Source: Clostridia bacterium (lineage in GTDB: Bacteria > Bacillota > Thermoanaerobacteria > Thermoanaerobacterales > Thermoanaerobacteraceae). Taken from it: a stretch of DNA of 45,889 nt. The notes beneath the pieces were generated by a model. The model saw only the letters and a list, made by a program, of their open reading frames with translations, was not told where the DNA came from and did no database searches. The position numbers and the translations under genes were made by a program. The stretch's first letter is position 1, and every line of letters begins with the position of its first letter. Shown here in pieces: positions 2,834-32,037 of this stretch. The stretch is taken from assembly GCA_012840485.1 (NCBI GenBank), contig DULG01000020.1, forward strand, positions 1 through 45,889, given 5' to 3'.

Positions 2834-3277
2834 TTACTTTTTAGCTTCTTTTAATGCTTTAGCAATTATTTCTTTTATTACCCAACCGCATTTTTGATAG
2901 GTGCTTTTATTTGCTCTTATCCATTCAGGAGAGAGCCGAACAGAATGAACTTCATCTGAATCTTTATAACACGTTACAGCACATTTTGTGTTTATTTTTT
3001 CGCTTATCAGAACACAGTGATAAACCCTATACCAACTTTCCGGCTCATAGACCTTTTCAATGTCAATCTTAAGATTTTTCAAAAGTTCCTCTGCTTTTTC
3101 CTTTACATCAGCTTCCTCAAATTTGTAATAAATAATTGAAACCACAATAAGCACTATAGGTAACCCAAATACAACGGCTCCTGCAGTAAGATAAGCTGTA
3201 TTCCATCCTTTCACAAAGCCTGCAATAATGTAGCTTGCTAGTGTCAAAAAGTACACCCAAACATGTAACTCTATCAT
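2834..3277 (-). CDS. Small membrane protein with two helices, unknown
   Basis: A 147-residue protein. Two hydrophobic segments (about residues 7-24, FLTLASYIIAGF, and 30-50, LTAGAVVFGLPIVLIVV) are followed by a cytoplasmic-looking domain of about 95 residues with four cysteines. ATG 3277 follows AAAGGAAGGG. I do not recognise the family. It lies about 90 bp downstream of the TadZ-like ATPase gene in the same orientation, so co-transcription with the pilus genes is likely but not shown. Confidence 0.65.
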   Translation of the reverse strand: MIELHVWVYFLTLASYIIAGFVKGWNTAYLTAGAVVFGLPIVLIVVSIIYYKFEEADVKEKAEELLKNLKIDIEKVYEPESWYRVYHCVLISEKINTKCAVTCYKDSDEVHSVRLSPEWIRANKSTYQKCGWVIKEIIAKALKEAKK

Positions 3278-3368: not shown

Positions 3369-4190
3369 TCAAGAGAAAATAAAATCACATACCGTGTCAA
3401 TTTCTTTACTAAGACTGCTTACAACTTTATATTTCAAATTCAGCAGTTTCACATACTTCTTAAACCCTTTTTCTGGCCTAACAAATACCGTCAAAAACTC
3501 ATAAGGAAACTCCTTCATTCTTCCAAACTCTCCTTCTGTTCCTTTGGATAAGACAATTATCTTTGTGGCATTGTCAAGCGCAGCTACAACAATTTCATTA
3601 AACTCATCTGAGAGGTCAAAAATTATTATGTCAAACTTGCTTCTCGCAAACTTCACAATCGCATCAACATCGCTTTCTTTAATATCTCTTACGAGACTTA
3701 CTTTAGGAGGAGCCTGAAGTATAGACACATTTGAGCTGTACTCAATTAAATTTTCAAAAAAGCTCTCTTTCGTTCTCTCTTTAAGCCACATTCCAATGTG
3801 GGGAAGGACGGGAAGGTCCAGCATAAAGCTTAAGTCTGAACCTCCGTCCTGAAAGTTTAAATCCACCACAAGCACTTTTATATTTTTATCCAAACTTTCA
3901 AGGAGATTTTTTACAAGTGTGGTTTTCCCCACACCGCCCTTGAAGGAGTACACCGCAATAACTTCCTGCTTTAAAGGCAGTATTTTTTCTTTTCTTTTTT
4001 CTTCATCCAGCTCCTTTACTGCACATCCGTTAAAGCTGTCTTTCACTAAATCGCCCACAATAAAATCATACTTTTTCTTATTCGTCATAATTTCAGCACT
4101 TTCTACAGATAAAACCACATCGGCATTTTCATAAATTTCTTTTGCTTTTTTAACATACCCTCTATCATTTGAAACAATCAGCACCTTCAT
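3369..4190 (-). CDS. TadZ/CpaE-like MinD-family ATPase
   Basis: A 273-residue protein. Residues 1-80 (KVLIVSNDRGYVKKAKEIY) resemble the receiver-like domain at the front of TadZ/CpaE proteins. From residue about 83 comes a ParA/MinD ATPase with the deviant Walker A motif KGGVGKTT, followed by VLVVDLNFQDGGSDLSF and IIIFDLSDEF as later ATPase motifs. TadZ proteins place the Tad pilus machine at one cell site. ATG 4190 overlaps the TGA stop of the upstream pilin-like gene (TGATG), so the two are translationally coupled. It is the second ParA-like protein in this cluster; the other (8012-8731) lacks the receiver part. Confidence 0.8.
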   Translation of the reverse strand: MKVLIVSNDRGYVKKAKEIYENADVVLSVESAEIMTNKKKYDFIVGDLVKDSFNGCAVKELDEEKRKEKILPLKQEVIAVYSFKGGVGKTTLVKNLLESLDKNIKVLVVDLNFQDGGSDLSFMLDLPVLPHIGMWLKERTKESFFENLIEYSSNVSILQAPPKVSLVRDIKESDVDAIVKFARSKFDIIIFDLSDEFNEIVVAALDNATKIIVLSKGTEGEFGRMKEFPYEFLTVFVRPEKGFKKYVKLLNLKYKVVSSLSKEIDTVCDFIFS

Positions 4191-4597
4191 CACACATCCC
4201 TCGCTTTCGCCATCCCTGTAACAGTTATATCTCTTGAAGTGCCGTACATCTCTCCTGAAACTGAAGCAGTTACATAAATGTATCTGTTTTTGACAGTCAC
4301 ACTTACATTTTTAACTGGTATTCCTAAATCTTTAAATGTATTTAGAGCTAAAGAATAAGCCTTATTAGTGTCTATAATTAAATCGCCTGACTGGGCGTAC
4401 TGCATGTTTACAGCTGAAACTGCAATATTTAAAGCTATTTCATCGCATATCTTAACAAGCTCCTCCCTTGCGCCGACTCCTCTTGATATACTGTGAACAG
4501 CGTACATAAAAAGGATTGAGAATATTATCAGAAACAGCATAAAAAGGAGGACAGCGTCTCCTCTTTTATCCTTAAAAAAATTTTTTAGAACATTCAC
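4190..4597 (-). CDS. TadE-like minor pilin
   Basis: A 135-residue protein beginning MNVLKNFFKDKRGD, then a hydrophobic helix (AVLLFMLFLIIFSILFMY). This layout, a short basic leader ending in a small residue followed directly by a helix, is that of TadE/TadG pseudopilins in Tad systems. The segment KDKRGD matches KDRKGD and KDRRAA at the same place in the two upstream pilin-like genes, probably the prepilin-peptidase site. It starts at GTG 4597, overlapping the TGA of the upstream gene. TadE versus TadF is not resolved. Confidence 0.75.
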   Translation of the reverse strand: MNVLKNFFKDKRGDAVLLFMLFLIIFSILFMYAVHSISRGVGAREELVKICDEIALNIAVSAVNMQYAQSGDLIIDTNKAYSLALNTFKDLGIPVKNVSVTVKNRYIYVTASVSGEMYGTSRDITVTGMAKARDV

Positions 4598-4986
4598 GGC
4601 GTATCACCCAGCCTTAGGGAGCTTTTACCCACAAGAGTCTTCTGCTGTCCTCCTAAAAGAGTGAAGGTATACCTGACCTCCACAGTAAGTATGCCGCTGT
4701 TTACTGCAGTATTTACAGAAAGCCTGTCTCCTATTTTCCAGCCTGATATTCCATTTCCAAAGTTTACTACAGCCATCTGAGCCGTCTGCTCTGGAGTGTC
4801 TGACTTTATTCCTATCCTCGCTCCTTCAAAGGCTGCCTCATTTACAAGTGTCTGCATGTTGCTTACCACAGCAATATTGACTGTAGAAGCTAAAATAAAA
4901 AGAAGAATAGGGATGAGGGCAGCTGAAGAGATAAGCTGAGAAGCTGCCCTTCTGTCCTTTAAAAATTTCCTCATCATCTTAATCAC
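4594..4986 (-). CDS. TadE-like minor pilin
   Basis: A 130-residue protein with the leader MIKMMRKFLKDRRAAS followed by a hydrophobic helix (LISSAALIPILLFILAS) and a segment with ANMQTLVNEAAFEGAR-like character (VNEAAFEGARIG), which is typical of TadE-family proteins. Minor pilins of this kind prime or cap Tad pili. The GTG at 4986 overlaps the TGA stop of the Flp-like gene; ATG codons at 4977 and 4974 are alternative starts, and no strong ribosome binding site decides between them. Confidence 0.78.
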   Translation of the reverse strand: MIKMMRKFLKDRRAASQLISSAALIPILLFILASTVNIAVVSNMQTLVNEAAFEGARIGIKSDTPEQTAQMAVVNFGNGISGWKIGDRLSVNTAVNSGILTVEVRYTFTLLGGQQKTLVGKSSLRLGDTP

Positions 4987-5204
4987 TTGCCCTGAACGGC
5001 ATTGTTAAAGAAGCTGGAAGCAGAAGAAAGAGCATTGTTTATCATATTCATGATCTGCTCCCTTAGTGTCGGAGATGCCACAACCAGTATTCCGACCACA
5101 ATTGCGATTAAGCCTACTGTTGATAAAAGGTTGTGGTCTCCTTTTCTGTCTTTAAAAAATCTTCCCACCACTTCCTTAACTTTTGCCAGTAAAGCCTTCA
5201 TCAT
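4983..5204 (-). CDS. Flp-like major pilin candidate
   Basis: A 73-residue protein, the usual size of Flp pilins. The leader MMKALLAKVKEVVGRFFKDR ends in KGD, then comes a hydrophobic helix (LLSTVGLIAIVVGILVV) and a short polar tail (SSASSFFNNAVQGK). A strong AAGGAGGT precedes ATG. It lies between the TadC-like and TadE-like genes, the expected place for a pilin. The classical Glu-Tyr pair after the Flp cleavage site is absent, so processing may differ. No prepilin peptidase gene was found in the window; a host enzyme would have to act. Confidence 0.7.
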   Translation of the reverse strand: MMKALLAKVKEVVGRFFKDRKGDHNLLSTVGLIAIVVGILVVASPTLREQIMNMINNALSSASSFFNNAVQGK

Positions 5205-5234
5205 AAAACATCTACCTCCTTAAAAAATTTTTAT

Positions 5235-5984
5235 TTAAAACAGATTAAAGAAGCTTCTCAAAGATATAACAAAAGGCAGTGCAAACATAATCAAAATTGG
5301 GACAAAGTATCCCAGAAAGATAGGGAAAAATAAGCTGTTGTCTAGTGTTCCAGCTCTTTCAATTTTTTGGTTGAAGTTTTTCTCCTCAACTTCTTCTAAA
5401 AGCTCTTCTAAGTTTTCCCTCATATCCTTTACTGACTCATGCTCTCCTGTTACAGCCTTTGCAAATCTTTTAAAGTGGTCGTTTAAGCTTTTATCTGCTG
5501 CAGACAAAAGTGCATCTTTTAAAGAGCTTCCTGTATCAAGCCTTACCTGTGCCTCATAGAGAAGGTCTCTCACCACCCCCTTTCTGGCCCTCACAATGTA
5601 GCTTATTATATTTTCTTTATTCATTCCCACCTCCAGTCCGCTTATAAATATCTCTAAAGCTGCAGGGAGCTCTTCTTCCCTATAGAAGCTCTCCCTGTAG
5701 CTTTCGATTGGCTTTCTCCAGTACTGGTAAAACATAATAGCTGAGCCTACAAACACAGAAAAAAGAGCCAAAATATTTGCACCGTTTACTGCTCCTATTA
5801 CTGTAAGAACAAGAAGACCTCCTAAAGCTAAAGTAGCGAAAGAAAAAAGCTCAAGCACATCCTGAGCTTTAAAGAAAAGTATCTTAACTCCTCCTACTGC
5901 CTTAATCTCTTTATCCCACTTTTCTATCATGTCCTGCTTTATCCCAAGCCTTTGAAGGTATTTTTCTGAGACAATCCTCCTCAT
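5235..5984 (-). CDS. tadC: TadC-like inner membrane platform protein
   Basis: A 249-residue protein with a type II secretion F-type domain. There is a pair of membrane helices near residues 50-90 (FATLALGGLLVLTVIGAV, ILALFSVFVGSAIMFYQYW), a central cytoplasmic helical domain (LPAALEIFISGLEVGM) and a final helix near residue 220 (PIFLGYFVPILIMFALPF). TadB and TadC together form the membrane base of the Tad pilus and are driven by TadA. It overlaps the TadB gene by 4 bp, showing a tight operon. Confidence 0.8.
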   Translation of the reverse strand: MRRIVSEKYLQRLGIKQDMIEKWDKEIKAVGGVKILFFKAQDVLELFSFATLALGGLLVLTVIGAVNGANILALFSVFVGSAIMFYQYWRKPIESYRESFYREEELPAALEIFISGLEVGMNKENIISYIVRARKGVVRDLLYEAQVRLDTGSSLKDALLSAADKSLNDHFKRFAKAVTGEHESVKDMRENLEELLEEVEEKNFNQKIERAGTLDNSLFFPIFLGYFVPILIMFALPFVISLRSFFNLF

Positions 5985-6886
5985 AGCTCCATCTCCTTAT
6001 CTATTTTCTTAAGCACATAAAATGTTGAAACAAAGTAGCTTAAAACTGCATAAGCAATAACAGCTTTTCCTATAGGTGTTGAGTAAGTTTTTACAAAATC
6101 AGGGCTTGACATCATTGTTGCTGCCATCATGAAGACCATTACTCCTGCAAGAGAGACCATGAGTGACTTTGCCTGCACTGTCATGGCAGCAATTTTGTTT
6201 GACATCTTTATCCTCTCATAAAGCTTTTTAGCTGTTCTCTCACACACTCTTGATAAATCAGACTTCATTCTTACCGCAAAAGTTATGCTGTCAGCCCACG
6301 CCTTTATATAAATGCTCTCCACATTCTTAAGCTCTTTTAATGCCTCTTCTAGATCTTCTCCAAGCTCAAACTTTCTTACGACCCTATCTGTGTATTCTTT
6401 TAAGGGGTTTTCAGCTTCCTCCGCTGCCTTTATAAAAGCTCCTGCAAAACTCGGCACCATTTTAAGATATGCGCCGAGCATTTTAACAAAATCTCTAAAC
6501 TGCTCTTCAGTCTTTCTTATTCTCCTTCTTCCTAAGTAGTCAAGAACATAATCTCCAAGGTAGTAAAGCATAAAAGGAAGTGATAGACCGAGCAGAGTAA
6601 AGCCTTTAAAGGTTAGAAATAAAGCTGATACAATAGAAAAAAGAGCAAACCATAAAAACACTTCTTCTGCTTCCGATTTAATGCCGCTCTTTTTAAGCTT
6701 TTTATCCAAAGCTTTAATAAATTTCTCTAAGCCAAACAAATCTGTTATGCTGAACTCATTCTTCTGCGGTGTTACCAAATGCCTCTCCAGCCTTCTTTTG
6801 AGTTTAAGACTTTTATTTTCTCTAATGCTGTACAAAAGAATTACAATCATAAAAACAGCTGCTCCAAATAAAAAAGAGACTGCCAT
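5981..6886 (-). CDS. tadB: TadB-like inner membrane platform protein
   Basis: A 301-residue protein with a T2SF domain. Its first helix (VSFLFGAAVFMIVILLYSI), a helix pair at about residues 80-120, a cytoplasmic helical domain (FRDFVKMLGAYLKMVPSFAGAF) and two C-terminal helices (SLMVSLAGVMVFMMAATMM, AVIAYAVLSYFVSTFYVL) match TadB. It sits directly after the CpaF/TadA ATPase gene (2-bp gap) and overlaps tadC, the standard tadA-tadB-tadC order. Confidence 0.82.
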   Translation of the reverse strand: MAVSFLFGAAVFMIVILLYSIRENKSLKLKRRLERHLVTPQKNEFSITDLFGLEKFIKALDKKLKKSGIKSEAEEVFLWFALFSIVSALFLTFKGFTLLGLSLPFMLYYLGDYVLDYLGRRRIRKTEEQFRDFVKMLGAYLKMVPSFAGAFIKAAEEAENPLKEYTDRVVRKFELGEDLEEALKELKNVESIYIKAWADSITFAVRMKSDLSRVCERTAKKLYERIKMSNKIAAMTVQAKSLMVSLAGVMVFMMAATMMSSPDFVKTYSTPIGKAVIAYAVLSYFVSTFYVLKKIDKEMEL

Positions 6887-6888
6887 TT

Positions 6889-8046
6889 TCAGTCACCCAC
6901 CACATATTTCAAAATGTATTCTCCATTATCATCTATTCCTTCAATTTCAACCACCTCAGCAAGCTCTCTTCCTCTTAAGTTCCCCTTTTCATCCTCAGCA
7001 AGCCTTAAGAACACGACAATGTCAACTGCTCTTGATATAAGCTTTCGTATAATCCTGTAATCCAAATTCTTAAACTCCTGTATAAGCATCTCAAGCCTTA
7101 AGAGAGCATCAAGGCATGAATTTGCATGTATTGTTGTCATAGACCCTCTGTGGCCTGAATTTAAAACGTGTATGAGCTCATAGGCGCTTTCAGGTGTACG
7201 TATCTCTGTTAAAATTATTCTATCGGGGTCTGCTCTTAGGCAGTCTTTTAAAATGTCAGAGTAGCTCACATCTCTTGCCTCAGCCGTTCCCTTTCTTGTT
7301 TTGAAGTAGTAAACATAAGGTATGTGAAGCTTAATCTCTCTTGTATCCTCCAGTACTACCACAACATGCTTTTCCTGAATCTCAAAGCCTAAAGAGTTAA
7401 TAAAAGTCGTCTTACCTGCACCTGTTTCTCCTGCAACCATGATGTTTTTTCTCTCTTTCACTGCTTTTTTGAAATACTCCTGCATCTTTTCATTAAGCCC
7501 TATTGTTGTCTTTGCCAATTCCTCTAAAGGCACATTTAATAGATTGTGCTTTCTGATAATTATGACCGGTTTATCAGACTCTGGAGGTATAACAAGAAGG
7601 GCTCTGGAGCCGTCGTATAGTTCTGCGTCCTGTGAGGGATTGGCTATGTTGATTGATTTATTGAGTGGTGCAAGGATTCTGTCCTGTATGACCCTCACAG
7701 CCTGCTCATTAGGAAATTCTTCTTCTGCGTCTAATTTTACTCCTGCCTTCTTGTACATTATCTTTGTGCCGTTCACATGTATGTCTGTAACTTCGGGGTC
7801 TTTAAGGTATTTTTCTATTATACCCAATCCGTAAAGGGAAGAATAAAGCATTTCTGTGTACTCTAAGAGTCTATCCAGTGCAAAAGGATACTTCTTTCTG
7901 AGATATTCCTTCACTTCTTCTCTCAGTATCTCCTTTATATTTGGCTTTCCGTGGTGCTTCATCATGACTTCCCTTATCTCATCTGTCATCCTCTCAACAT
8001 CCACAGCTCCATCATTTATCTTTCTGCTTAACTCTCTTAAAGCCAT
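6889..8046 (-). CDS. tadA: CpaF/TadA-family secretion ATPase
   Basis: A 385-residue ATPase of the type II/IV secretion superfamily. It has the Walker A motif GETGAGKTT (about residue 207), an Asp-box region around VVVLEDTREIKL, Walker-B-like DRIILTEIRTPESAYEL, and the His box GSMTTIHANSCLDALLRLE, as in CpaF/TadA. The N-terminal region is helical, followed by EVTDIHVNG, typical for this family. It would power Tad pilus assembly; as a VirB11 relative it could also energise the transfer machine, since no other VirB11 is seen. ATG 8046 follows AAGGAGG. The ParA gene upstream overlaps its start by 35 bp. Confidence 0.9.
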   Translation of the reverse strand: MALRELSRKINDGAVDVERMTDEIREVMMKHHGKPNIKEILREEVKEYLRKKYPFALDRLLEYTEMLYSSLYGLGIIEKYLKDPEVTDIHVNGTKIMYKKAGVKLDAEEEFPNEQAVRVIQDRILAPLNKSINIANPSQDAELYDGSRALLVIPPESDKPVIIIRKHNLLNVPLEELAKTTIGLNEKMQEYFKKAVKERKNIMVAGETGAGKTTFINSLGFEIQEKHVVVVLEDTREIKLHIPYVYYFKTRKGTAEARDVSYSDILKDCLRADPDRIILTEIRTPESAYELIHVLNSGHRGSMTTIHANSCLDALLRLEMLIQEFKNLDYRIIRKLISRAVDIVVFLRLAEDEKGNLRGRELAEVVEIEGIDDNGEYILKYVVGD

Positions 8047-8731
8047 TTAAAAGCCTCCTTAACAGGGATTTTTCTTTCTTTACCTCAAAGAAAGCATCTT
8101 TCAAATTTTTGGCGTGCCTTATCATTTTCTTATCCTTGTACTCACTAAGCCTTCGCAGATAAGGAATAGAATAAACGACCGGTATGCCTAAATCTACAGC
8201 AGTGATGTACTTCTTTTTTCCTTTGACTTTATTAACTACTGCGCAGGCCTTACTTACATCTAAAAAGCCGTGAAGCTTTAAGTACTCTATTATTCCAACT
8301 GTTCTTGAAACTGCTGATATGTCATCTTCTAAGACAAACAAAACTCTGTCAGCTTTTAAAAGGGCAGCAACAGCAGGCTCAGAAATTTGCGGCTGCAGGT
8401 CTATAAGAACATAGTCATACTCGCCTGAAATGTCATTAAGAAGCTTTTCTACATCAGCATATTTTAGGTTTTCCTGCATGTGTGGAAAGCCGCCGACTAT
8501 GACGTCAAACTTTTCACCTGCCGGCCTTTGAAGGCAGGCTCTGTAGTCTCCCAAACATGCATTGACAATATTTTTTTCTTTGTCTAAATCAAGCAAAGAC
8601 ACAAAATCTCCGGGAGAAAAGTCTGCTTCCACTGCACACACTTTTTTATCTTCTGACAGCACTCTTGCAAGAGCCAGTGTAAGTGTAGTTTTTCCAACAC
8701 CGCCTTTTGGGCTGAAAACTGTAATAACCAT
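8012..8731 (-). CDS. ParA/MinD-family ATPase, CpaE-like
   Basis: A 239-residue protein with Walker A SPKGGVGKTTLTLALARVL near the N terminus, the EADFSPGDFVSLLDLD motif and YDYVLIDLQPQISEPAVAAL as Walker B. It consists of the ATPase domain alone and lacks a receiver-like front domain. Its place between the CpaB-like and TadA-like genes fits the CpaE/TadZ role in pilus positioning. ATG 8731 is preferred because GGTG sits at good distance; an earlier ATG at 8737 overlaps the cpaB stop. The basic C-terminal tail (LLRRLLNGFKRVKQKDK) could bind membrane. It overlaps tadA by 35 bp. Confidence 0.85.
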   Translation of the reverse strand: MVITVFSPKGGVGKTTLTLALARVLSEDKKVCAVEADFSPGDFVSLLDLDKEKNIVNACLGDYRACLQRPAGEKFDVIVGGFPHMQENLKYADVEKLLNDISGEYDYVLIDLQPQISEPAVAALLKADRVLFVLEDDISAVSRTVGIIEYLKLHGFLDVSKACAVVNKVKGKKKYITAVDLGIPVVYSIPYLRRLSEYKDKKMIRHAKNLKDAFFEVKKEKSLLRRLLNGFKRVKQKDK

Positions 8732-8736
8732 TTTCA

Positions 8737-9282
8737 TCACCTTCTTATTACTTTGAATGAGTTAAGCTTCAAGTACGGCACAAGCTGTGCTGCAGAGTTT
8801 AAATCTGCATTAAGAATTAAGCTTGCTTTGTCAGAATCTTCTTTTACGACTGAGATTACCTTAAAGCCGTCAAGAACTTTAGAGCCTGTCTGGTCAAAAA
8901 CTATAAAGCTTACTGTATCTCCTGACTGAAGTGTTTTTGCTTCTACAGAAGTTATAGGAACTGTCATTACAGCATGGTCAGGACCTAAGGGCTGAGAATC
9001 TTTTGAAGTTAAAATTTCAACTGGAATGAAATCTCCTCTTACTCTTCCTTCCTTCACAACTTTTCCCACAACATCAGCTGGGCTTCTGGCATAGTTAGGT
9101 TTAACTACTGAAGCAGGCACATCAATTGTTTTTACTGCATCCTCTGAAATGACAGTGCCTGCCGGTATATCTTTTTCTACCACAATCACTTTTTCTGTCT
9201 TCTGAATATTCTGCATGAATACAAGCATAAAAGCTGCAGAAACAGCAGCTGTTATTAAAGCAATTTTAATAATCCTGCTCAT
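8737..9282 (-). CDS. cpaB: CpaB/RcpC-like SAF-domain pilus protein
   Basis: A 181-residue protein: an N-terminal membrane anchor (IIKIALITAAVSAAFMLVF), then KVIVVEKDIPAGTVISEDAV, which is the SAF-domain signature, and an RcpC-type C-terminal domain with MTVPITSVEAKTLQSGDTVSFI. CpaB/RcpC proteins stabilise the outer part of Tad pili. It has the expected size for a Gram-positive short form. ATG 9282 follows GGAGGTTCTTT, with a short overlap with the upstream gene. Confidence 0.85.
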   Translation of the reverse strand: MSRIIKIALITAAVSAAFMLVFMQNIQKTEKVIVVEKDIPAGTVISEDAVKTIDVPASVVKPNYARSPADVVGKVVKEGRVRGDFIPVEILTSKDSQPLGPDHAVMTVPITSVEAKTLQSGDTVSFIVFDQTGSKVLDGFKVISVVKEDSDKASLILNADLNSAAQLVPYLKLNSFKVIRR

Positions 9283-9874
9283 AAAGAACCTCCTTTACTA
9301 AAAGCTGTTCAATTTTTAATAAGCCTTCGTTTAGGTCAGTGCATCTGTAGCTTTCACCTAAAAATTTAACTATGCCCTCAATCTGCTTTTTTGCTCTCTC
9401 AACCTCCTTTGAAGGCTCTTTTCTCTTTTCTTCGGCTTGAAGTGAAATATCCAGCACTCCTGTATGCCATCTTGCAGCTTGAGTGTAGACTGCAGGAGGA
9501 GATAGAAGGACTTTTTTCACTGCTTCACCCCAATCTGTGTCTTCATCACTTGCTGTTATGTCGTATATACCGAGGCTTACTATAGAAGAAATTAATATAT
9601 CTCCCGGCTTTCTGTCGTGGACAATAACAGCTACTCTTGTATTTGGTCTTGCTATTCTAAAGCTTTGAAGAGCAGAAACAGCTTCTTTTTCATCTAAAGC
9701 TTTTAAGTCTACAACCAAAACATCAGAAGGGACTCTTGAAGCAGAGTAGAATACATCCTTGATTTTCTCACCGTCTAATTTTCCAATATACTCAAAAACC
9801 AGCTCACCTATCTGCTTTATGGACTCTTTTATTTTCTCCGCTGTTTCTCCTGTGGCAATAATCGAAACAAGCAA
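9266..9874 (-). CDS. TadZ/CpaE receiver-like domain protein
   Basis: A 202-residue protein if read from TTG 9874, which has GGAGG seven bases upstream; an earlier start would run back into the peptidase gene. It shows an alternating strand/helix layout (LLVSIIATGETAEKIKESI, VLVVDLKALDEKEAVSAL, TRVAVIVHDRKPGDILISS, LGIYDITASDEDTDWGEAV) like the atypical receiver domain of TadZ/CpaE. No ATPase motifs follow. A helical tail of about 60 residues replaces them. With the separate ATPase two genes downstream this looks like a CpaE divided into two proteins. The assignment rests on fold pattern and context only. Confidence 0.55.
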   Translation of the reverse strand: MLVSIIATGETAEKIKESIKQIGELVFEYIGKLDGEKIKDVFYSASRVPSDVLVVDLKALDEKEAVSALQSFRIARPNTRVAVIVHDRKPGDILISSIVSLGIYDITASDEDTDWGEAVKKVLLSPPAVYTQAARWHTGVLDISLQAEEKRKEPSKEVERAKKQIEGIVKFLGESYRCTDLNEGLLKIEQLLVKEVLYEQDY

Positions 9875-9890
9875 GCCTGAACCTCCTTCC

Positions 9891-10847
9891 TTACTTAAAA
9901 AAGTCAAGTGGATTTACAGCTCTTCCCCCAATTCTTACCTCAAAGTGAAGGTGAGAACCTGTGCTCTTCCCTGTGGAGCCTACATATCCGATGACATCAC
10001 CGGATTTTACAATTTGTCTCTGCTTAACTGCAATTGATGATAAATGAGCATATCTTGTTTCATACCCTCCATTGTGTGTTATATAAATCACATTACCATA
10101 GCCTCCATTCCAACCTGCATAACCTACTTCTCCATCAGCTGCAGCTATAACAATTGTCCCTGTAGGTGCTGCAATATCTATTCCACTATGAAAGCCCATT
10201 GTCTCATATACTGGATCAACTCTCGGACCAAAACCTGAAGTAATTCTATATACTCCTGGTACTGGCCACTTAAAATTTTTCTCTACTGCTATCCAATTGT
10301 CCGGCAAATTTGCTGCTGAATTTAATAAAAGCGAAAAATCAAACTCAATAAATTCTTTAACTTTTTCTTTCTCTGAGGCAGAAAAGTTTAAAAGATTTAA
10401 AACTTCATCTAAACTTCTAAGTTTATAAATCGGATATACTTCTACTATTTCATTTGGTGGTTCACCTGACCGCTCTTCCACTTCATCAACCTTTTCAATA
10501 AACATTTTTGCAAGTTCTTCTATTTCATAAGAATTTGCTTTGCTAAAATCCTGTTGAAATCTCACAGCATCTATAGCAACAAGCTGCCTCCAGTTAATCT
10601 GTACTCTTTCGCTATACTTGCTTCCGGTGCTTTCGCTGACTTTATTTGCCACATCAATATACATTTTTATCTGTTCTGTATTAATTAAAGGCAGCTTCTC
10701 TGCTCCAGTAATAGGACCTGCAAAAAGAAGAGCTATCAATAAAAAAGGAATTAACACTGCAAAGATTAAAAATTTAATAATATCTTTTATATCAAATTCA
10801 AAAAAAGATAATAAAACTTTAGACAGGGTTTTAGCAAGTGCGGACAT
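9891..10847 (-). CDS. M23-family cell wall peptidase, membrane anchored
   Basis: A 318-residue protein. One membrane helix (ILIFAVLIPFLLIALLF-like, about residues 22-42) anchors it, a helical stalk follows, and the C-terminal 130 residues form an M23 (LytM) metallopeptidase: ITSGFGPRVDPVYETMGFHSGIDIAAPTG gives the H-x3-D zinc motif and SHLHFEVR the second zinc motif. In transfer operons such an enzyme opens peptidoglycan for the machine, as VirB1 does. It lies between VirB4 and the Tad genes and overlaps VirB4 by one base. The ribosome binding site is GGAGGTGG. Confidence 0.88.
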   Translation of the reverse strand: MSALAKTLSKVLLSFFEFDIKDIIKFLIFAVLIPFLLIALLFAGPITGAEKLPLINTEQIKMYIDVANKVSESTGSKYSERVQINWRQLVAIDAVRFQQDFSKANSYEIEELAKMFIEKVDEVEERSGEPPNEIVEVYPIYKLRSLDEVLNLLNFSASEKEKVKEFIEFDFSLLLNSAANLPDNWIAVEKNFKWPVPGVYRITSGFGPRVDPVYETMGFHSGIDIAAPTGTIVIAAADGEVGYAGWNGGYGNVIYITHNGGYETRYAHLSSIAVKQRQIVKSGDVIGYVGSTGKSTGSHLHFEVRIGGRAVNPLDFFK

Positions 10848-12628
10848 TAATTACCACCTCCTGTCAAATACTGCATTTCATAAGGTGCTGCTTCAATCTT
10901 TATGTGAATTCTCTGTGTACCTGCAACAAAAAGCCCTTCTCCTCTTTTTGCACTTACTAAAAGGTCATGCTCTGCTTCAGAAAGGTTCATAAGAGCTGTT
11001 ATTGCTTCTAAGTCTTTTTCTCCTTGAGCAAGAAGAAGTTTGTAAGTAGGATTATCCAGCAGTGCTTGGCCGTACCTCTGCACTTCAGGTGCTAAAAAGT
11101 CTATAACGTTCTGGCTTATGACAATTAAGCTTCCATTGTACTTCCTTATTCTCTTTGATGTATCCCTCAGAAACGCTATTGCCTGAGGCGTCTGAGGGTC
11201 AACAAGCATCCATGCTTCATCCACAACTAAAACAGTTCTTTCTCTTCTATCTCTCTCTAAAATGTTCCATGCAAAAGAAAGAACGTTGAAGTACTGCGCT
11301 CTCTTAACTTGGTCTTCAGCATTCTGCAAATCATGAACATCAAAAACAATAAAATCGGAGTCAGCCTCCACAGCAGTTGGGCCTGCCCATAAATATGAGT
11401 CTGCTCCTTCTGCTGCTCTTTTTAAAAGTACTGCCAATCTTGTGTATGTCTCAGGATTTTCTTCCGCCTTTTTCACACAGTATTCATAAAGCTCTTTCAC
11501 AGTAGGCCATTTATCATTAGGAACATCTCTTGGGTCTGTATCCCATGTTATTCCTGCTGCCTTATACACTTCCACTAGTGCATCTTCTAAAGCTGCTTTT
11601 TCTGTGTCCGTAAGGTCTCTGAGGTATAAGCTGAAGAAGGTTCTTAAAGTCTGTATGTGTAAAGCTAAAGGGCTTTGTAATCTACTATTTTCTTCCTCTT
11701 CTTCCTCAACAGGCCTCAATCTTACCTGCAGTGGATTTATCTTTCCTTCTCCACCCGTGCAGTTAATCCAGACTCCTCCGAGCCTATGACACATATCTTT
11801 GTACTCTCGCTCGGGGTCTATAATTATGATTCTGCTTCCCTGCATGTACTCTCTTAAAAGAAGCATTTTAGCAGTAAAGCTCTTTCCTGCGCCGGGCTTT
11901 GCAAGAATAGTCCAGTTGGAGTTTGTCCTGTCTCCACCACGCTTCCATATGTCAACTAAAATCAATCCTCCATCTCTGTCTTTTCCCAAAACAACACCGC
12001 TTCCATCGTTTATGCCTGAAGCAGTGAAGGGAAAGGAGGCAGCAACAGTTTCAGCAGGCATATTTCTTGCCCCTGCTTCTTTCACCTCATCCGGCAGTGT
12101 GCAGAAGGGTCCTGCTGCTTTAAGTCCCTCTTCTTGGCGGAATATAAGTACTCTGCCCCTCATACCTGAAGCTGCTAAAGAAGCCTCAACCTGACGTGTT
12201 CTTCTATCAAGCTCCTGCTGATTAGAGGCAAGGACCATAATGATGACAGTAACGTAAAATACCTGCTGCTGTTCCTGGTCTATTTTTCTCATTAATTCTT
12301 CTGCATCTTTTAAAGCCTGCTCTGTTCTTTGCATTGTGAGGGCATTTCCTCCTATTTCAAGCCTGCCTATATATTCACCAATAGCCTTATTTAAGCTATT
12401 TATTAAATCTGTAGGATCAGTAGGCTCAATGTGGACAGAACACACTACACCCTGCATTCCTGCAATTCTTGAAAGCCATGCAGCATTTACTTTTGGAGGA
12501 TAGCCTGCAATGACTAGGATTCTTGCAAGCTGGTCATTAAATACTACCTGCCTTGCATTAAATTCAAGAGCTTGCGGTGAAATCATATCAATTAATCCTG
12601 TAAGCACATTTACTTCTTTTTTCTTCAC
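10847..12628 (-). CDS. virB4: VirB4-family conjugation ATPase
   Basis: A 593-residue protein from GTG 12628 (GAGGTG at eight bases); an alternative GTG lies at 12637. The first 200 residues form the VirB4 front domain (QQVFYVTVIIMVLASNQQEL). The ATPase domain follows with Walker A LAKPGAGKSFTAKMLLL, then RIIIIDPEREYKDM, Walker B RTVLVVDEAWMLVDPQ and a later SLIVISQNVIDF. VirB4 powers substrate transfer and machine assembly. It is preceded by a TraC-like gene that resembles the front part of longer VirB4 proteins. Confidence 0.92.
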   Translation of the reverse strand: MKKKEVNVLTGLIDMISPQALEFNARQVVFNDQLARILVIAGYPPKVNAAWLSRIAGMQGVVCSVHIEPTDPTDLINSLNKAIGEYIGRLEIGGNALTMQRTEQALKDAEELMRKIDQEQQQVFYVTVIIMVLASNQQELDRRTRQVEASLAASGMRGRVLIFRQEEGLKAAGPFCTLPDEVKEAGARNMPAETVAASFPFTASGINDGSGVVLGKDRDGGLILVDIWKRGGDRTNSNWTILAKPGAGKSFTAKMLLLREYMQGSRIIIIDPEREYKDMCHRLGGVWINCTGGEGKINPLQVRLRPVEEEEEENSRLQSPLALHIQTLRTFFSLYLRDLTDTEKAALEDALVEVYKAAGITWDTDPRDVPNDKWPTVKELYEYCVKKAEENPETYTRLAVLLKRAAEGADSYLWAGPTAVEADSDFIVFDVHDLQNAEDQVKRAQYFNVLSFAWNILERDRRERTVLVVDEAWMLVDPQTPQAIAFLRDTSKRIRKYNGSLIVISQNVIDFLAPEVQRYGQALLDNPTYKLLLAQGEKDLEAITALMNLSEAEHDLLVSAKRGEGLFVAGTQRIHIKIEAAPYEMQYLTGGGN

Positions 12629-12633
12629 ATGAA

Positions 12634-13266
12634 TCACCTCGCATTAAAAATGGGTGGTAAGTATAGTCCATTAAAAGCTGGTGCTCTTTCAAATGCTGCC
12701 TGTGATGGGTGGCTGAAGCTGAAAAGAAGGTCTATTATGTCTTGGTCCTGCGCTAATTCTACTTTTAGACCAGACTTTTCAAGGTTGTTGGCAAGCTCAT
12801 GGGCTTTTGCTTTTAATTCGTCTTTTTCTTTACTTGAGAGCATAATAAAAAAGCGCCTTTCTATTGCTTCACCGCTTGTAACAATAGAAGCAACGTATTT
12901 TAAGTACTCCTGAAGAAGTCTCTTTTTAATTACGCTTGTTTCCTCCCTTGATTTTGTCTGAAGAAAATTAATATAAGGGTCAAGGTCTACTGGTCTTCCC
13001 ATAGAAAATATCTGCATGGACTCTTTAAAGCCGTTTAAAGCTTCATATACTGTCTGTATTATTCTCTTCTTTTCATTTTCGCTTTTTAAGCCGATGTTCA
13101 ATGGCATAACCTTTAAAACACATACATATCTTCCGTCTTTGAGTAAAATCATATCTTCTGTAACATCTTTCACAGGAAGCCACTCTTGCACAGCCTTTCT
13201 TTTCTGCTCTTCTATTTTTGCCTTATCTTTTTTTACAGCCTTTTCTTTTTTAAAAATTCCAATCAA
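12634..13266 (-). CDS. TraC-like protein associated with VirB4
   Basis: A 210-residue protein from TTG 13266, whose TTGA overlaps the PrgI stop; GGGAGG lies nine bases upstream. The body (VKDVTEDMILLKDGRYVCVL, ESMQIFSMGRPVDLDPYINF) is the pattern found at the front of many Gram-positive VirB4/TraC proteins or as a separate TraC-like protein between PrgI and VirB4. Because VirB4 has its own front domain and good start signal, this looks like a natural two-gene arrangement and not a frameshift. It probably sits on the cytoplasmic side of the channel. Confidence 0.7.
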   Translation of the reverse strand: MIGIFKKEKAVKKDKAKIEEQKRKAVQEWLPVKDVTEDMILLKDGRYVCVLKVMPLNIGLKSENEKKRIIQTVYEALNGFKESMQIFSMGRPVDLDPYINFLQTKSREETSVIKKRLLQEYLKYVASIVTSGEAIERRFFIMLSSKEKDELKAKAHELANNLEKSGLKVELAQDQDIIDLLFSFSHPSQAAFERAPAFNGLYLPPIFNAR

Positions 13267-13568
13267 TCTCTGCAACCTCCCTGCACATAAAGGTATCTTT
13301 TTTGCTTTTTAGTCCAATTTAGATAGGATTTGATTAAACTAAATACGCTGTTTCCATCTGGACCGGGAACAACTGCAAAGTAAGAAAGCCCTGTTAAAAT
13401 AAGTACTATCAAATACCTTATGATAGACTTCGTAAAAATTGATAATATTAAATAAACAAATAGACCTATTGAAAGTCCAATAAGTACAAAAAAGAGCTCT
13501 TTCCATCCAAAGCCCGGAAAAAACTCAAACTTTACAGAAATATTTTTGGGCACTTGATACAAAAACAT
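13263..13568 (-). CDS. prgI: PrgI-family conjugation membrane protein
   Basis: A 101-residue protein with YQVPKNISVKFEFFPGFGWK at the front, two adjacent membrane helices (LFFVLIGLSIGLFVYLILSI, YLIVLILTGLSYFAVV) and the ending IKSYLNWTKKQKRYLY typical of PrgI (a VirB3-like component). ATG 13568 overlaps the TGA of the VirB6-like gene; TTG 13562 is an alternative with better spacing from GAGAGGG. PrgI regularly precedes VirB4 in Gram-positive transfer operons, as here. Confidence 0.85.
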   Translation of the reverse strand: MFLYQVPKNISVKFEFFPGFGWKELFFVLIGLSIGLFVYLILSIFTKSIIRYLIVLILTGLSYFAVVPGPDGNSVFSLIKSYLNWTKKQKRYLYVQGGCRD

Positions 13569-14425
13569 CACCCTCTCATAATCATTTTTCTCATTAAATA
13601 CATGCTTCCTGCAGATTGTGCTGTCTGCCCAACTGCACTCCCAACGCCGGTATGATATGCAAACTGCCTCAAAACAGATGGGGTCTTAAAAGCTACCCAC
13701 AGCCAGCCTATAAGCATTAATTTACTCAAAATCTCACTCGTAAAATACATATTTGCAATTGTAGATAAAAATCCTCTAATCATAAATGTCTGTACCGCTT
13801 GAGATAGTGATAATACAACAAGCTCTCTCCACCATACAGACCACACACCTTCATCTGGCCGTGTAAGTCCCACTGCCATAATTGGACCTGAAACAGCTAT
13901 AAAAGCAATTTCAACAGCTCTTATTGCAGTTTGAATTAAAATTAAAATCCATATCACTATTACTGCTAAAAGAATTAGCAGTAAAGCAGTTGACATTTGC
14001 GAAATGCCTGAAACTATATTTGAAACAGGATTTTCAAGATTGACAGCAGGTAAAGCAGCTACTTCTTTTGCTAAATCTGCACCAAAAGTATATACCTTTG
14101 TAACTAACCACGGCGAAGTTGAAACCATTGCAGCAGCAAAAGCAGTTCTTTTGATAAGTTCTAAGGGCTGTGCTGAAGAATCTCCTGAGTTGTACAAAAT
14201 ATATGTCTTTAGTGCCTCAGCTGCAACCTTTAAAGCAAGTAATGTTCCTGCAATTATTTGAGCTAATTTAATCCCATTTGTGATATATGGAGTATTAAGT
14301 ATCTTAAGAGCAACTGCCATTTCGTCGCCAAAAAATGATGTAAACATGCTTATTAAACTTTCAAGCAAATTTTGAAAAAAATTTGTAACTGCATCTGAAA
14401 TCATGTTTGTGATAGCACTAAACAA
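13568..14425 (-). CDS. VirB6/TrbL-like transfer channel protein
   Basis: A 285-residue polytopic protein. An amphipathic N-terminal region (MISDAVTNFFQNLLESLISM) is followed by five or so hydrophobic helices, among them GIKLAQIIAGTLLALKVAAE, LLILLAVIVIWILILIQTAI and a tryptophan-rich one (KLMLIGWLWVAF). This is the pattern of TrbL/VirB6 proteins that form the inner-membrane channel. TTG 14425 is supported by GGAGG seven bases upstream. It follows the pilin gene with a hairpin in between. Confidence 0.8.
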   Translation of the reverse strand: MFSAITNMISDAVTNFFQNLLESLISMFTSFFGDEMAVALKILNTPYITNGIKLAQIIAGTLLALKVAAEALKTYILYNSGDSSAQPLELIKRTAFAAAMVSTSPWLVTKVYTFGADLAKEVAALPAVNLENPVSNIVSGISQMSTALLLILLAVIVIWILILIQTAIRAVEIAFIAVSGPIMAVGLTRPDEGVWSVWWRELVVLSLSQAVQTFMIRGFLSTIANMYFTSEILSKLMLIGWLWVAFKTPSVLRQFAYHTGVGSAVGQTAQSAGSMYLMRKMIMRG

Positions 14426-14443: not shown

Positions 14444-14470
14444 AAGGGGACGGATTTCAAACCGTCCTCT
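14444..14470 (-). terminator. Hairpin after the VirB2-like gene, probable attenuator
   Basis: On the minus strand AAG-A-GGACGG, loop TTTGAAAT, CCGTCC-C-CTTTTC forms directly at the stop codon of the VirB2-like gene. The T tract is broken by a C, so partial read-through into the VirB6 gene is plausible. That would give more pilin than channel mRNA. Confidence 0.6.
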
Positions 14471-14712
14471 TATTTAAAATAAGCTAAAACAACTTTAACA
14501 AGTGATGCTGCACTCATTCCTATTGCTCCAGCAATTAAAACATTTCTAATAGCTCTGTTATGAGCCGCTGTTACAGAAGGATCTCCATCTCCCATTTGTT
14601 TCATCAAAGCATGATATCCTATAGCTGCACCAGAAGCAGCAGGAATGAGATATAAAATCCATGTAAGAGCATCATTTAAAAGTTGAAAAGCGCCTGTAAC
14701 TAATGTTGGCAT
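14470..14712 (-). CDS. VirB2/TrbC-like pilin-type membrane protein
   Basis: An 80-residue protein with two hydrophobic helices (LTWILYLIPAASGAAIGYHAL and VLIAGAIGMSAASLVKVVLAY) around a polar loop with GDGDPSVTAAHNRAIRN. Size and layout match VirB2-like or Maff2-like proteins of Gram-positive conjugative elements. There is no clear cleavable signal. AAGGAGGAGA precedes ATG. It lies between the coupling protein and VirB6, and a terminator-like hairpin follows at once. Confidence 0.7.
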   Translation of the reverse strand: MPTLVTGAFQLLNDALTWILYLIPAASGAAIGYHALMKQMGDGDPSVTAAHNRAIRNVLIAGAIGMSAASLVKVVLAYFK

Positions 14713-14724
14713 AAAATCTCCTCC

Positions 14725-16560
14725 TTACCTTAATTTTGATAATAAATTCTCATTAGTTCTCTCTGTCTCTTTACTTCTACCTTCTTCTAAAAGACTAATA
14801 TCAGGTATCCATGTAGGTACTGACACCACCTCCTTTTTAAGTTCTTCTAAAGCAGAAGGAATTAAGTCTTTTGCTGCAGACCATTTAGAAAGGTCAGGTA
14901 AAGGAAGCCATGCAGGATTTTGTCTTGCCTGAAGTATAAGTGCTCTATCATGTGGCCATCTTAAGACTTCATCGGGAGTAAGTAGTGACCTTCCTATCAA
15001 ACCTTCTGATGTTCCATGACTGTAATCAGTATGTTTAACTTGGGAAGAGTAGCTTTCAGTCCTTATTGTGTACTGTCCAGTTTTACCGCTTATTATCTTT
15101 GCTGTTTCTAAATCTGTTGTTAGTATATATACCCATGTAGCACAGTTTCCTGTAATTATCTGAGCTAATTCTCTATATTTCGCTTTAATCATTGATATGT
15201 CCTGAACAGCCAGTAAAAACCTCATATTGCGCCCTGCTGCTACAGTAATTTTTTTATCAAAGTCAGGTATTGGAGGAAGATTACCAAACTCGTCCAGAAT
15301 AAAGTTTACTCGTTGCGCAAGTCTTCCTCCTCCTTTATTTGCAAGGTCAACTAAAGATTGATAGGCTTGTGAAATATACATTGTAGCCAGTACATTTCTT
15401 GTTGCCCTCTCATCAGGAATTACTATAAATACCGCTGTCTTTTCTTTCCCTGCAGCATCTAAATTGTGGTCCTGCTTAGATGTAAGCCAGATAACCGCAG
15501 GATCTGACCATAGCCTAAGCTGTGCTGCTGTTCCTGTGAATATGGAGCTTCTTAATCTATCTTCTGATAAGGCTGCAACTCCATAGGCTGAAGCAGCAAG
15601 ATGTGTATAGGGTAACGACTTAAAATACCTATCTAATAATTCTCCTCCATTTGCGCCTAAGCGGTGGAGCATTTCATAAGCACTGCCTAAATGCCTTGCC
15701 TCATTTGGTGCAGAAGAAGCAACGGCAAGTATCAAAGCAGCCGTTAAACTTTCCTGTGATTGAGGCCATATAGGGTCTACTCCTATTTGTGGCTGTTGAT
15801 TTGTTATTATGTTCGCTATGTCCCATGCACTCTGACTTGCACCAGAATAATCACCAGCTTCAAAATAAGATACCACTTCTAAAACAGGATTCCACTGATT
15901 CCCTTGATATGGATTTCTTAAGTCAATTAGAACAACTTTATATCCAAGCTTTTTTAGGTATTCTGATGTATAGCTGTACAGTTCTCCTTTGGGGTCAGAT
16001 ACAATCATACTTTCTCCTGTTTTTGCAATAGCCCATATCGTTGGTAGCATTATTCTTCTTGATTTACCACTTCTTGTTGAGCCAATAACTAAGCAGTGAG
16101 TATCTCCTGTATCAATCCATGCCTTCCCTGCAGCAGAATTAAACCCGACAATAAAGCCCCCTTTCGGGGGGTTGTTGTTGCTCAAATTCCACACAGTAAA
16201 AGTTTTTGATATTTCTTTTTCTGTTCTCCACCTTGCGGTTCCATATTCTCCTCTTCCTGCTGCTTCAGGAAGACCCAACTCATCAGTTTTTCTTTTTCTC
16301 CTTCCATAGATAGGAAAAAGTACAGAAATTAAAGCTGCAAAAACAGCGGGCTGTAACCACAGCCATGAGGTCTTCACATCTTCTTTTTTGAGCAGTAAAG
16401 ATATTCCCGATAAAGGTTTCTCTTTTATATATGCCTCCCATTTAGGAAGGCCTTCTTTAAAGCCGTAATCTTTAGCGTAAATCGGGAAAAGCAGCAAAAA
16501 AGGTGCAAATAAAAAATCAAGCATGAGAATTAAAGTGGCTATTATAGCTCTAAATCTCAC
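14725..16560 (-). CDS. virD4: VirD4/TraG-type coupling protein
   Basis: A 611-residue protein from GTG 16560, whose AAGGGGTG lies at good distance; it overlaps the relaxase end by 11 bp. Two N-terminal helices (IIATLILMLDFLFAPFLLLF and WLWLQPAVFAALISVLFPIY) anchor it. Walker A is VIGSTRSGKSRRIMLPT, a conserved SMIVSDPKGELYSYTSEYL follows, and Walker B is NFILDEFGNLPPIPDF. It links the relaxase-DNA complex to the channel. A hairpin-forming GC tract at 16156-16171 encodes NNNPPKGG inside the gene. Confidence 0.93.
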   Translation of the reverse strand: MRFRAIIATLILMLDFLFAPFLLLFPIYAKDYGFKEGLPKWEAYIKEKPLSGISLLLKKEDVKTSWLWLQPAVFAALISVLFPIYGRRKRKTDELGLPEAAGRGEYGTARWRTEKEISKTFTVWNLSNNNPPKGGFIVGFNSAAGKAWIDTGDTHCLVIGSTRSGKSRRIMLPTIWAIAKTGESMIVSDPKGELYSYTSEYLKKLGYKVVLIDLRNPYQGNQWNPVLEVVSYFEAGDYSGASQSAWDIANIITNQQPQIGVDPIWPQSQESLTAALILAVASSAPNEARHLGSAYEMLHRLGANGGELLDRYFKSLPYTHLAASAYGVAALSEDRLRSSIFTGTAAQLRLWSDPAVIWLTSKQDHNLDAAGKEKTAVFIVIPDERATRNVLATMYISQAYQSLVDLANKGGGRLAQRVNFILDEFGNLPPIPDFDKKITVAAGRNMRFLLAVQDISMIKAKYRELAQIITGNCATWVYILTTDLETAKIISGKTGQYTIRTESYSSQVKHTDYSHGTSEGLIGRSLLTPDEVLRWPHDRALILQARQNPAWLPLPDLSKWSAAKDLIPSALEELKKEVVSVPTWIPDISLLEEGRSKETERTNENLLSKLR

Positions 16561-17734
16561 GGCTTTCACCCCTTCTTTCTGCCATTCTTCTTTTTTTCTC
16601 CATTTCTCTTTGAGCTGCAATACTTGCCTCTGCTTCTGCTCTTAATCTTTCTCTTTCTAAAGCTCTCCATGCTGAGCGCCATACTGTATTTATAACTTTT
16701 GACGGGTCTTTCTGAAGTGCTGCTGCGCCCTTCAGCACAATCTGAGCTACTCTTTTCTGTATGTCTTCATATGCCTTTTCTGCTGCTTTTTCTAAAACTT
16801 CTTGATTGGATGTATAGTGGCTGGCCAGCTCTTTAGCAAGGTCCTTATATCTTTCAACAGATTGAGAGAATCCAGGCTGCTTTAAAAGCCAGTCAGCAAT
16901 TTCTTTTGCTTTTTCTTTTACTTCAGAAGGCATGTAAGCAAAAGCGATGCGCCCTTTTTGAGGCATAATCTTTGAAAGCTCTTTTAGTTTTTCCAAAAGC
17001 TCTTCTCTTGTCTGCTGGTCAAGGGTAGGGGGGAGACCGGGCTTTTCTCCATTTAGTGCTCTTATTTCTATTCTTGCTTTTTTGACTTCCTTCAGCACTT
17101 CTGAAATATCTCTTTTAGCTGTATCTCTTATTAAGTCCCTTACTGCTGATTTTTCTGCCGTAAGTGCTAGCCTTTCTTTTGCATATATTTCACGAATAAA
17201 TATTTTTCTTATGTCTTTTCTTTCGCCATGTGAGAGCACTCCTCTAGTGCGCTTGGGTTCTTTCTCCCATAGTATTACATGCACATGAGGATGACCTTTT
17301 GTCTGATGAAAAGCAGCTGCCCATCTTAGGTTTGATTCTGGAATACCCATTTTTGCTGCAGCTTCAGAAAGTGTCGCTCTTAATACTTTTTCCCATGACT
17401 CTCTTGTTGTGTAGCCCAATCTTACAGCATCATCTTCTTTCAAAGATAAAACCATTCTCCAGACAATGCCTTTGTGATTTTTAAGCTCCTTTTGAACTTC
17501 TCCCAAGTCAGGCATTTCCTCCTCAGCAGTGAAAAGTCCGTGGCTTCCAGGCCTTTCGTGCATGTACTTTGTGTGCCACTCAGGAGTGTCTGGCTCCAAT
17601 TCATCTTCTATGCTGAGCTCTCCTCTGTCTGCTCCCGGCCTTGTTGCAATGTACTGAACGTGGGCACTGTTCCTTGCTTGGTTTTTAGCTGTTGGAGGAT
17701 AAAAAGCTATCTTCATTACAAAAGGAGAGCTCAT
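16550..17734 (-). CDS. MOBL-type relaxase
   Basis: A 394-residue protein. The early segment AHVQYIATRPGA and the metal-binding histidine motif FHQTKGHPHVHVILWEK are those of relaxases of the MOBL/MobP3 group first described for pLS20. The C-terminal half is helical and basic, likely for DNA and partner contacts. It would nick the ICE at oriT and lead the strand into the recipient. ATG 17734 overlaps the TGA of the RHH gene, so the two are co-translated. The family assignment is from motif memory; MOBP is the other possibility. Confidence 0.85.
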   Translation of the reverse strand: MSSPFVMKIAFYPPTAKNQARNSAHVQYIATRPGADRGELSIEDELEPDTPEWHTKYMHERPGSHGLFTAEEEMPDLGEVQKELKNHKGIVWRMVLSLKEDDAVRLGYTTRESWEKVLRATLSEAAAKMGIPESNLRWAAAFHQTKGHPHVHVILWEKEPKRTRGVLSHGERKDIRKIFIREIYAKERLALTAEKSAVRDLIRDTAKRDISEVLKEVKKARIEIRALNGEKPGLPPTLDQQTREELLEKLKELSKIMPQKGRIAFAYMPSEVKEKAKEIADWLLKQPGFSQSVERYKDLAKELASHYTSNQEVLEKAAEKAYEDIQKRVAQIVLKGAAALQKDPSKVINTVWRSAWRALERERLRAEAEASIAAQREMEKKRRMAERRGESREI

Positions 17735-19029: not shown

Positions 19030-19036
19030 TTTGTTT

Positions 19037-20143: not shown

Positions 20144-20176
20144 AAGCCTACTCCTCATCCACTTTTAGTTACATAT

Positions 20177-22410: not shown

Positions 22411-22593
22411 TTATGTTCCTCCTCTAGGTTCATCTATAATTTTTATTACTTCTTCATCTTTTCTCTCACACACTCGTATAATGTAATTTAGTTCTCTTTT
22501 TGTGAGATACTTTTTTTCTCCTGCATAGTAATTAACCATCTGCTTCATTAATTCCCATGCGCCCTTGTAATCCAGATCCCTTTCTTTTGTCAT
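22411..22593 (-). CDS. Small hypothetical protein
   Basis: A 60-residue helical, charged protein (YKGAWELMKQMVNYYAGEKK, YIIRVCERKDEEVIKIID). It overlaps the end of the ParM-like gene by 4 bp and is translated with it. No family recognised. Confidence 0.5.
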   Translation of the reverse strand: MTKERDLDYKGAWELMKQMVNYYAGEKKYLTKRELNYIIRVCERKDEEVIKIIDEPRGGT

Positions 22594-23627: not shown

Positions 23628-23683
23628 TTGAACTCCGCCTCCTTTAAATTTTTTTGCAAAAATAAAAAACGCTTTAATCGGCG

Positions 23684-31936: not shown

Positions 31937-31961
31937 AACTTGATTTTAAAGTTAAAAAAAA

Positions 31962-32037
31962 TGGAGCTGGCGAAAGGACTTGAACCTTCAACCTGCTGAT
32001 TACAAGTCAGCTGCTCTGCCTATTGAGCTACGCCAGC
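31962..32037 (-). tRNA. tRNA-Thr(TGT), ICE insertion site
   Basis: A 76-base tRNA with acceptor stem GCTGGCG/CGCCAGC, D stem GCTC/GAGC, anticodon stem GCTGA/TCAGC with loop CTTGTAA (anticodon TGT, Thr), T stem GAAGG/CCTTT with loop TTCAAGT, and encoded CCA. Its 3' end faces the integrase gene, so the attachment core should lie in the 3' half, with a copy at the other ICE end. Confidence 0.95.

Follow-up and report, generated by a model that had tools for sequence, protein, structure and literature searches.

The integrative element

We analysed a window of 45,889 nucleotides (contig DULG01000020.1 of assembly GCA_012840485.1) from the 2.65-Mb genome of a Clostridia bacterium of the Thermoanaerobacteraceae. 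The window carries nearly all of an integrative and conjugative element (ICE) of ~34.9 kb, inserted in a tRNA-Thr gene, in which the operon for a type IV secretion system (T4SS) runs into the genes of a Tad (type IVc) pilus. Below, G denotes surveyed genomes (G000 is that of the window), C contigs (the window is C84) and L loci that were read.

An integrase gene, a tRNA target and flanking direct repeats were identified, as were genes for a relaxase, a coupling protein and the T4SS; excision and transfer are predicted from these genes. The left end of the window shares an exact 127-bp overlap with contig C39, which supplies the rest of a tryptophan-rich (W-rich) repeat protein, then a prepilin peptidase and then the second 52-bp att repeat. 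We infer the joining of C84 and C39 from this overlap. G009 and G002 each have the repeat protein and the peptidase on one continuous stretch, as does G001 with a different surface protein in place of the repeat protein. The length of the element follows from the positions of the two repeats on the joined contigs.

30759-31880, plus strand: tyrosine integrase of the ICE (PF00589, 2.3e-23)
31962-32037: tRNA-Thr, adjoining the integrase gene
31955-32006, no strand: 52-bp att repeat within the tRNA-Thr 3' part, repeated perfectly in direct orientation at C39:3060-3111

The transfer operon and the Tad module

Nineteen genes, from orf89 (position 18000) to a second tadZ (3369), form one minus-strand run in which 14 of the 18 junctions overlap and the other four are gaps of 2-44 bp. 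This agrees with the initial annotation, made from the letters of the window, which had described one unit from relaxase to pilins. All the co-oriented transfer and Tad genes that it named are present on the minus strand with Pfam support (weak for Flp and the second TadE). Its extent for the cluster, 3369-9874, holds for the genes within it and needs correction at both ends: the first open reading frame (ORF) on the Tad side is really 9907-9266 and matches no family, and the unit continues past 3369 to tadV on contig C39.

17731-18000, minus: orf89, small protein; 4-bp overlap with the relaxase gene; also upstream of the relaxase in L033, L037 and L039
16550-17734, minus: MobP3-family relaxase (NCBIfam NF041499, 325 bits, cut-off 150; Pfam MobL, 1.5e-23)
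14725-16620, minus: VirD4-type coupling protein, CD1115 family (NF045973, 385 bits, cut-off 250)
14470-14712, minus: T4SS_pilin-like small membrane protein (PF18895, 3e-5, slightly below cut-off)
13568-14425, minus: TrbL/VirB6-like channel protein, TrbL_4 (PF19597, 5.8e-74)
13263-13571, minus: PrgI/VirB3-like protein (PF12666, 7.9e-8)
12634-13275, minus: N-terminal part of VirB4 as its own gene (TraC_F_IV, 0.0025)
10847-12637, minus: ATPase part of VirB4 (P-loop_TraG, 9e-22)
9891-10847, minus: M23 peptidoglycan peptidase, VirB1 role (PF01551, 1.3e-37)

The division of virB4 into two genes recurs in L033, L034, L037, L039 and L074. In G001, an insertion of ~3.2 kb breaks the prgI gene of this operon (L039:5520-8734).

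9266-9907, minus: orf213, no family match; conserved in L037, L038, L039 and L040
8737-9282, minus: CpaB/RcpC-like protein, SAF domain (PF08666, 2.8e-8; TIGR03177, 1.5e-8, below cut-off)
8012-8740, minus: TadZ, MinD/ParA-like (Pfam AAA_31/CbiA, 4e-15)
6889-8046, minus: TadA/CpaF ATPase (T2SSE, 1.2e-31; Walker A GETGAGKTT intact)
5981-6886, minus: TadB platform protein (PF00482, T2SSF, 6.2e-13)
5235-5984, minus: TadC platform protein (PF00482, T2SSF, 5.2e-8)
4983-5204, minus: Flp-like pilin, 73 amino acids (prepilin-like site KDRKG followed by DHNLLSTVGLIAIV)
4594-4986, minus: TadE-like minor pilin (PF07811, 4.8e-4, slightly below cut-off)
4190-4597, minus: second TadE/F-like minor pilin (PF13400, E 0.18, weak; recovered with a profile of relatives)
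3369-4193, minus: second TadZ-like ATPase (PF13614, 6.4e-12)
2834-3277, minus: orf147, membrane protein, conserved in G002
2182-2769, minus: orf195, putative lipoprotein, conserved in G002 and G009
1180-1971, minus: orf263, conserved
1-1121, minus, continued at L166:3-344 on C39 by the 127-bp overlap: secreted W-rich repeat protein, 445 amino acids
L166:341-742 on C39, next gene after the repeat protein: prepilin peptidase tadV, 133 amino acids (PF01478, 6.3e-13)

The module, complete at a single locus, has the marks of a Tad (type IVc) system: a TadA/CpaF-type ATPase, adjacent one-domain TadB and TadC, two copies of TadZ/CpaE, and TadV/CpaA. The best solved relatives of TadA are CpaF structures (8rkd, 9e24), and its score against NCBIfam TIGR03819 is below cut-off. 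The Flp-like ORF stands where a Flp gene would be expected, is matched weakly by Pfam Flp1_like (E 0.06) and was found by profiles built from relatives, in which it is conserved. It is possible that orf213 is a separated N-terminal domain of TadZ; a local orf213 profile was dropped as evidence, having drawn in whole TadZ proteins. We take the host's group to be monoderm. The secretin RcpA/CpaC is diderm-specific (PMC6668835).

A small dedicated prepilin peptidase also adjoins the module in G001 (twice), G002, G007, G009, G013 and G015. When the window is compared with G009 or G001, ratios of nonsynonymous to synonymous substitution rates (dN/dS) are 0.045-0.39 across all tad genes (0.045-0.049 for TadA), roughly the range of the T4SS genes. 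The module is kept as working protein-coding genes under purifying selection.

Recurrence of the pairing

We searched for VirB4 in 299 genomes of the phylum and 27 relatives, and for TadA in the VirB4-positive genomes. At 52 of the 103 VirB4 loci a TadA is found no more than 40 kb away, and many of the loci that have none stand at contig ends. The nearest TadA is on the same strand as VirB4 in all 52 cases, 26 downstream and 26 upstream. Among single-contig genomes, for which expected counts were calculated from genome size, TadA is near 15 of 19 higher-scoring VirB4s (0.67 expected) and 9 of 10 lower-scoring ones (0.91 expected), or 24 of 29 combined against ~1.6 expected. These figures are descriptive, because related genomes are not independent.

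G009 and G001 repeat the full gene order, and G002 repeats part of it. Two identical TadAs are encoded in G001, one behind the same T4SS and the other behind a T4SS with a VirB4 only 28% identical. The same order was found on Exiguobacterium and Mycoplasmatota plasmids, and Sulfobacillus and Carboxydocella plasmids have tad and virB4 genes in other arrangements. A search of genome contigs with the ICE-type TadA gave one close match, in Thermoanaerobacter thermocopriae; the others were remote. Where flanks were read, no lone TadA was seen beside VirB4; TadB, TadC and most other tad genes accompany it.

Exchange of the module

Several sister ICEs (G073, G279, G132, G289, G242 and others) were considered as cases without tad genes and rejected, as the module was found upstream. 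It lies 13.6-16.8 kb upstream of virB4 in G008, G016, G018, G073 and G279. The TadAs of G008, G016 and G018 form a second lineage, ~30% identical to that of the window (G073 and G279 are not among the rows of the TadA tree). The initial annotation had named absence of tad genes from related ICEs as a finding that would refute its reading; most related elements carry the same or a different tad module.

22590-23699, minus: ParM-like actin, element maintenance; also in L037
25516-26526, minus: DnaD-like replication protein; in some relatives another tad module lies between this gene and parM

In G003 (C47, L059) such a module is flanked by a parM gene and a dnaD-like gene with 99% and 86% identity, respectively, to the window's copies. 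Across L057, L058 and L059 a second, different tad module adjoins a dnaD-like gene that shares 86-97% identity with that of the window, showing recent exchange of modules between elements. In the VirB4 tree the window is nearest to four rows with downstream tad genes, then to the contig-limited G013:C7, then to two rows with upstream tad genes. Because its close T4SS relatives carry either the downstream or a different upstream module, the T4SS lineage of the window swaps its Tad module but tends to keep one; the module is replaced and not lost. In the TadA tree the window TadA belongs to a supported group of 24 rows (95/83). Each row of this group is linked to a T4SS or has an unknown context, and the 16 chromosomal TadAs that were read all fall outside it; the group is a sample, in which the T4SS links of G025, G033, G030 and G031 are over distances of 40-57 kb.

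The surface protein beside tadV

The secreted protein encoded directly upstream of tadV belongs to a family whose members share a constant C-terminal domain of ~120 amino acids and differ widely in the N-terminal part. Its genes adjoin that of the prepilin peptidase in the window's element and in close relatives. In G000, G009 and G002 the constant domain follows W-rich repeats (VWVDTSHWETRKVWVKSGYW), which match no Pfam family. In the 1089-amino-acid version of G001 it is preceded by a part of ~970 amino acids with a peptidoglycan-binding domain and CARDB-like repeats (an AlphaFold model of this protein was discarded; mean predicted local distance difference test score, 38), and in proteins of G007 and G093 by other sequences. 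Besides the window's own protein, the family is encoded at L167:18307-19605, L038:5163-6476, L169:1213-4482, L041:5566-7377 and L110:18504-19802. Propeller/CARDB proteins also occur within the tad clusters of pCCELLA01 and pMU3262. The pattern of constant C-terminus and variable N-terminus is what might be expected of an exchangeable surface adhesin.

Function of the module

Since the Tad genes of the transfer operon form a full set, peptidase included, and such a set is kept or replaced across different VirB4 lineages, the module probably builds a filament for contact between mating cells. TadV would cut the Flp-like and TadE/F-like prepilins, and TadA, acting via TadB and TadC and positioned by the TadZ proteins, would extrude a thin filament. 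CpaB and the M23 peptidase may help to maintain a gap in the wall for its passage. Perhaps together with the surface protein whose gene adjoins tadV, this filament would then attach to or draw in a recipient, to which the MobP3/VirD4/VirB4 channel would pass DNA. There are precedents: element-borne type IV pili are needed for transfer of TP114 in broth and in the gut (PMC9045228), and type IV pili start the transfer of PAPI-1 (PMC5297154). The suggestion in the initial annotation that the pilus brings mating cells together gains support from the retention or replacement of the module in related elements.

Some observations weigh against this role. Glutamate at position 5 of the mature protein is typical of pilins, and is not defining for Tad systems. 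Each of the three window pilins has a prepilin-like site (e.g., with KDRKG before and DHNLLSTVGL after the cut), and all three lack this glutamate, which makes a normally built pilus less than certain. It is missing from 52 of 58 pilin-like sequences beside T4SS genes and present in 14 of 25 chromosomal ones, counts that are approximate as cleavage sites were chosen automatically. Some related T4SS loci, a minority, have no TadA nearby even though their flanks are complete (G082, G218, G032, G035 and others), and the module is therefore not universally required. The T4SS operon in the stretch of pOM18 that was read is likewise without a Tad module, as in some Firmicutes plasmids.

The initial annotation also proposed that TadA replaces a missing VirB11. 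In that case TadA would drive the T4SS channel, and the remaining Tad proteins would be secondary. TadA and VirB11 are members of a single ATPase family, their NCBIfam scores are close (178 for the TadA type and 174 for VirB11, both below cut-off), and the T4SS-pilin gene gives the channel a subunit of its own on which a VirB11-like ATPase could act. However, Gram-positive T4SSs as a rule have no VirB11 (PMC12857230), and TadA is not nearer to VirB11 than to other T2SSE ATPases, its best solved match being CpaF at 140 bits against 95 bits for VirB11. The whole platform, pilin and peptidase set is retained under purifying selection, never as a lone TadA where flanks were read, and the VirB4 partners of TadA come from several distant lineages. 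We regard this replacement as improbable.

It is somewhat less improbable, if still unlikely, that the module is cargo, which would spread by travelling on the ICE and help the host to adhere or form biofilms. Tad pili serve in adhesion and are often plasmid-borne; the view in the initial annotation that they are normally chromosomal is too strong, as a survey of type IV filaments found Tad to be the class most often carried by plasmids (PMC6668835). No second TadA was found in G000, leaving the host with no other Tad system. Against this reading, the module interleaves with the transfer operon through overlapping genes, is always co-oriented with VirB4, and is swapped for another Tad module and not for other cargo. 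A filament for DNA uptake, or a wall-spanning pseudopilus of the T4SS channel, is highly improbable. One bacterium needs its tad locus for transformation and not for adhesion (Angelov 2015, as cited in PMC5696575), and a short Flp that lacks the glutamate could build a short pseudopilus; yet the element encodes export genes (relaxase and coupling protein), no competence genes were found within it, and the large secreted proteins beside the module suggest a role on the outer cell surface.

Comparison with known systems

One close published case is in Sulfobacillus, where Tad-type genes on a Firmicutes conjugative element have been noted (PMC6803676). Plasmids pY0017/pL15 of Sulfobacillus thermotolerans and the integrated region of strain Kr1 resemble the window in having TadA/TadB/TadC-like genes, TraG, a relaxase, VirB4 (~45% identical) and a lytic enzyme on one element; unlike in the window, the tad genes lie apart from virB4. 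They are called a 'type II secretion' part of the conjugation system, and in the text read no mating function is worked out for them (PMC6803676).

On pEYLC1.2 of Exiguobacterium acetylicum, MobP3, VirD4 CD1115, pilin, TrbL, PrgI, split VirB4, CpaB, TadZ, TadA, TadB, TadC and pilins follow in the order of the window, but TadA is only ~32% identical and an extra 2.8-kb gene stands between virB4 and cpaB. The window VirB4 is 45-46% identical to those of pEYLC1.2 and pY0017. We found no publication on the pEYLC1.2 arrangement in the open-licence literature. A plasmid assigned to a Mycoplasmatota bacterium (L183, CP074574.1) encodes VirB4, then a SAF protein, an AAA ATPase, CpaF and type II secretion F-like proteins in the same order.

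The tad plasmid of Cutibacterium acnes also has a Gram-positive tad locus adjoining VirB4- and TcpC-like transfer genes, although it is actinobacterial and linear and has an FtsK/TraB-like translocase as well; its authors considered the link between Flp pili and conjugation unclear (PMC5696575). The cst locus of C. sordellii was considered as a tad-like case and dropped, as its paper never mentions Tad. The pili of TP114/R64 and PAPI-1 are likewise element-borne type IV filaments beside a T4SS, and are needed for mate contact, with PilV variants setting the recipient range (PMC9045228, PMC5297154). They are type IVb and not type IVc, and belong to Gram-negative hosts.

Other genes of the element

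A gene that matches Pfam Beta_protein (8e-47; 26773-27816, plus strand) has the replication genes on one side and the integrase on the other. It is encoded on the opposite strand and may be cargo or a defence gene. A low-GC (28%) pair just upstream of the transfer operon (18181-20158, minus strand), radical SAM/DUF5131-like and GMT-wHTH, is possible cargo.

Implications

Isolated cases of tad genes with conjugation genes are already published, for Sulfobacillus and Cutibacterium plasmids. The systematic pairing of T4SS and Tad, and the exchangeable surface protein beside the prepilin peptidase, appear to be new within the open-licence literature. Gram-positive conjugation is usually held to work without pili. 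We propose, tentatively, that many Gram-positive conjugative elements might have a true conjugative pilus, formed by a Tad lineage dedicated to mating, and that its exchangeable surface protein might determine the recipients to which it binds. Bacillota conjugation systems of many kinds include an entire set of Tad genes or swap one such set for another; if the filament serves mating, Gram-positive gene transfer would have a means of cell contact that has so far been overlooked.

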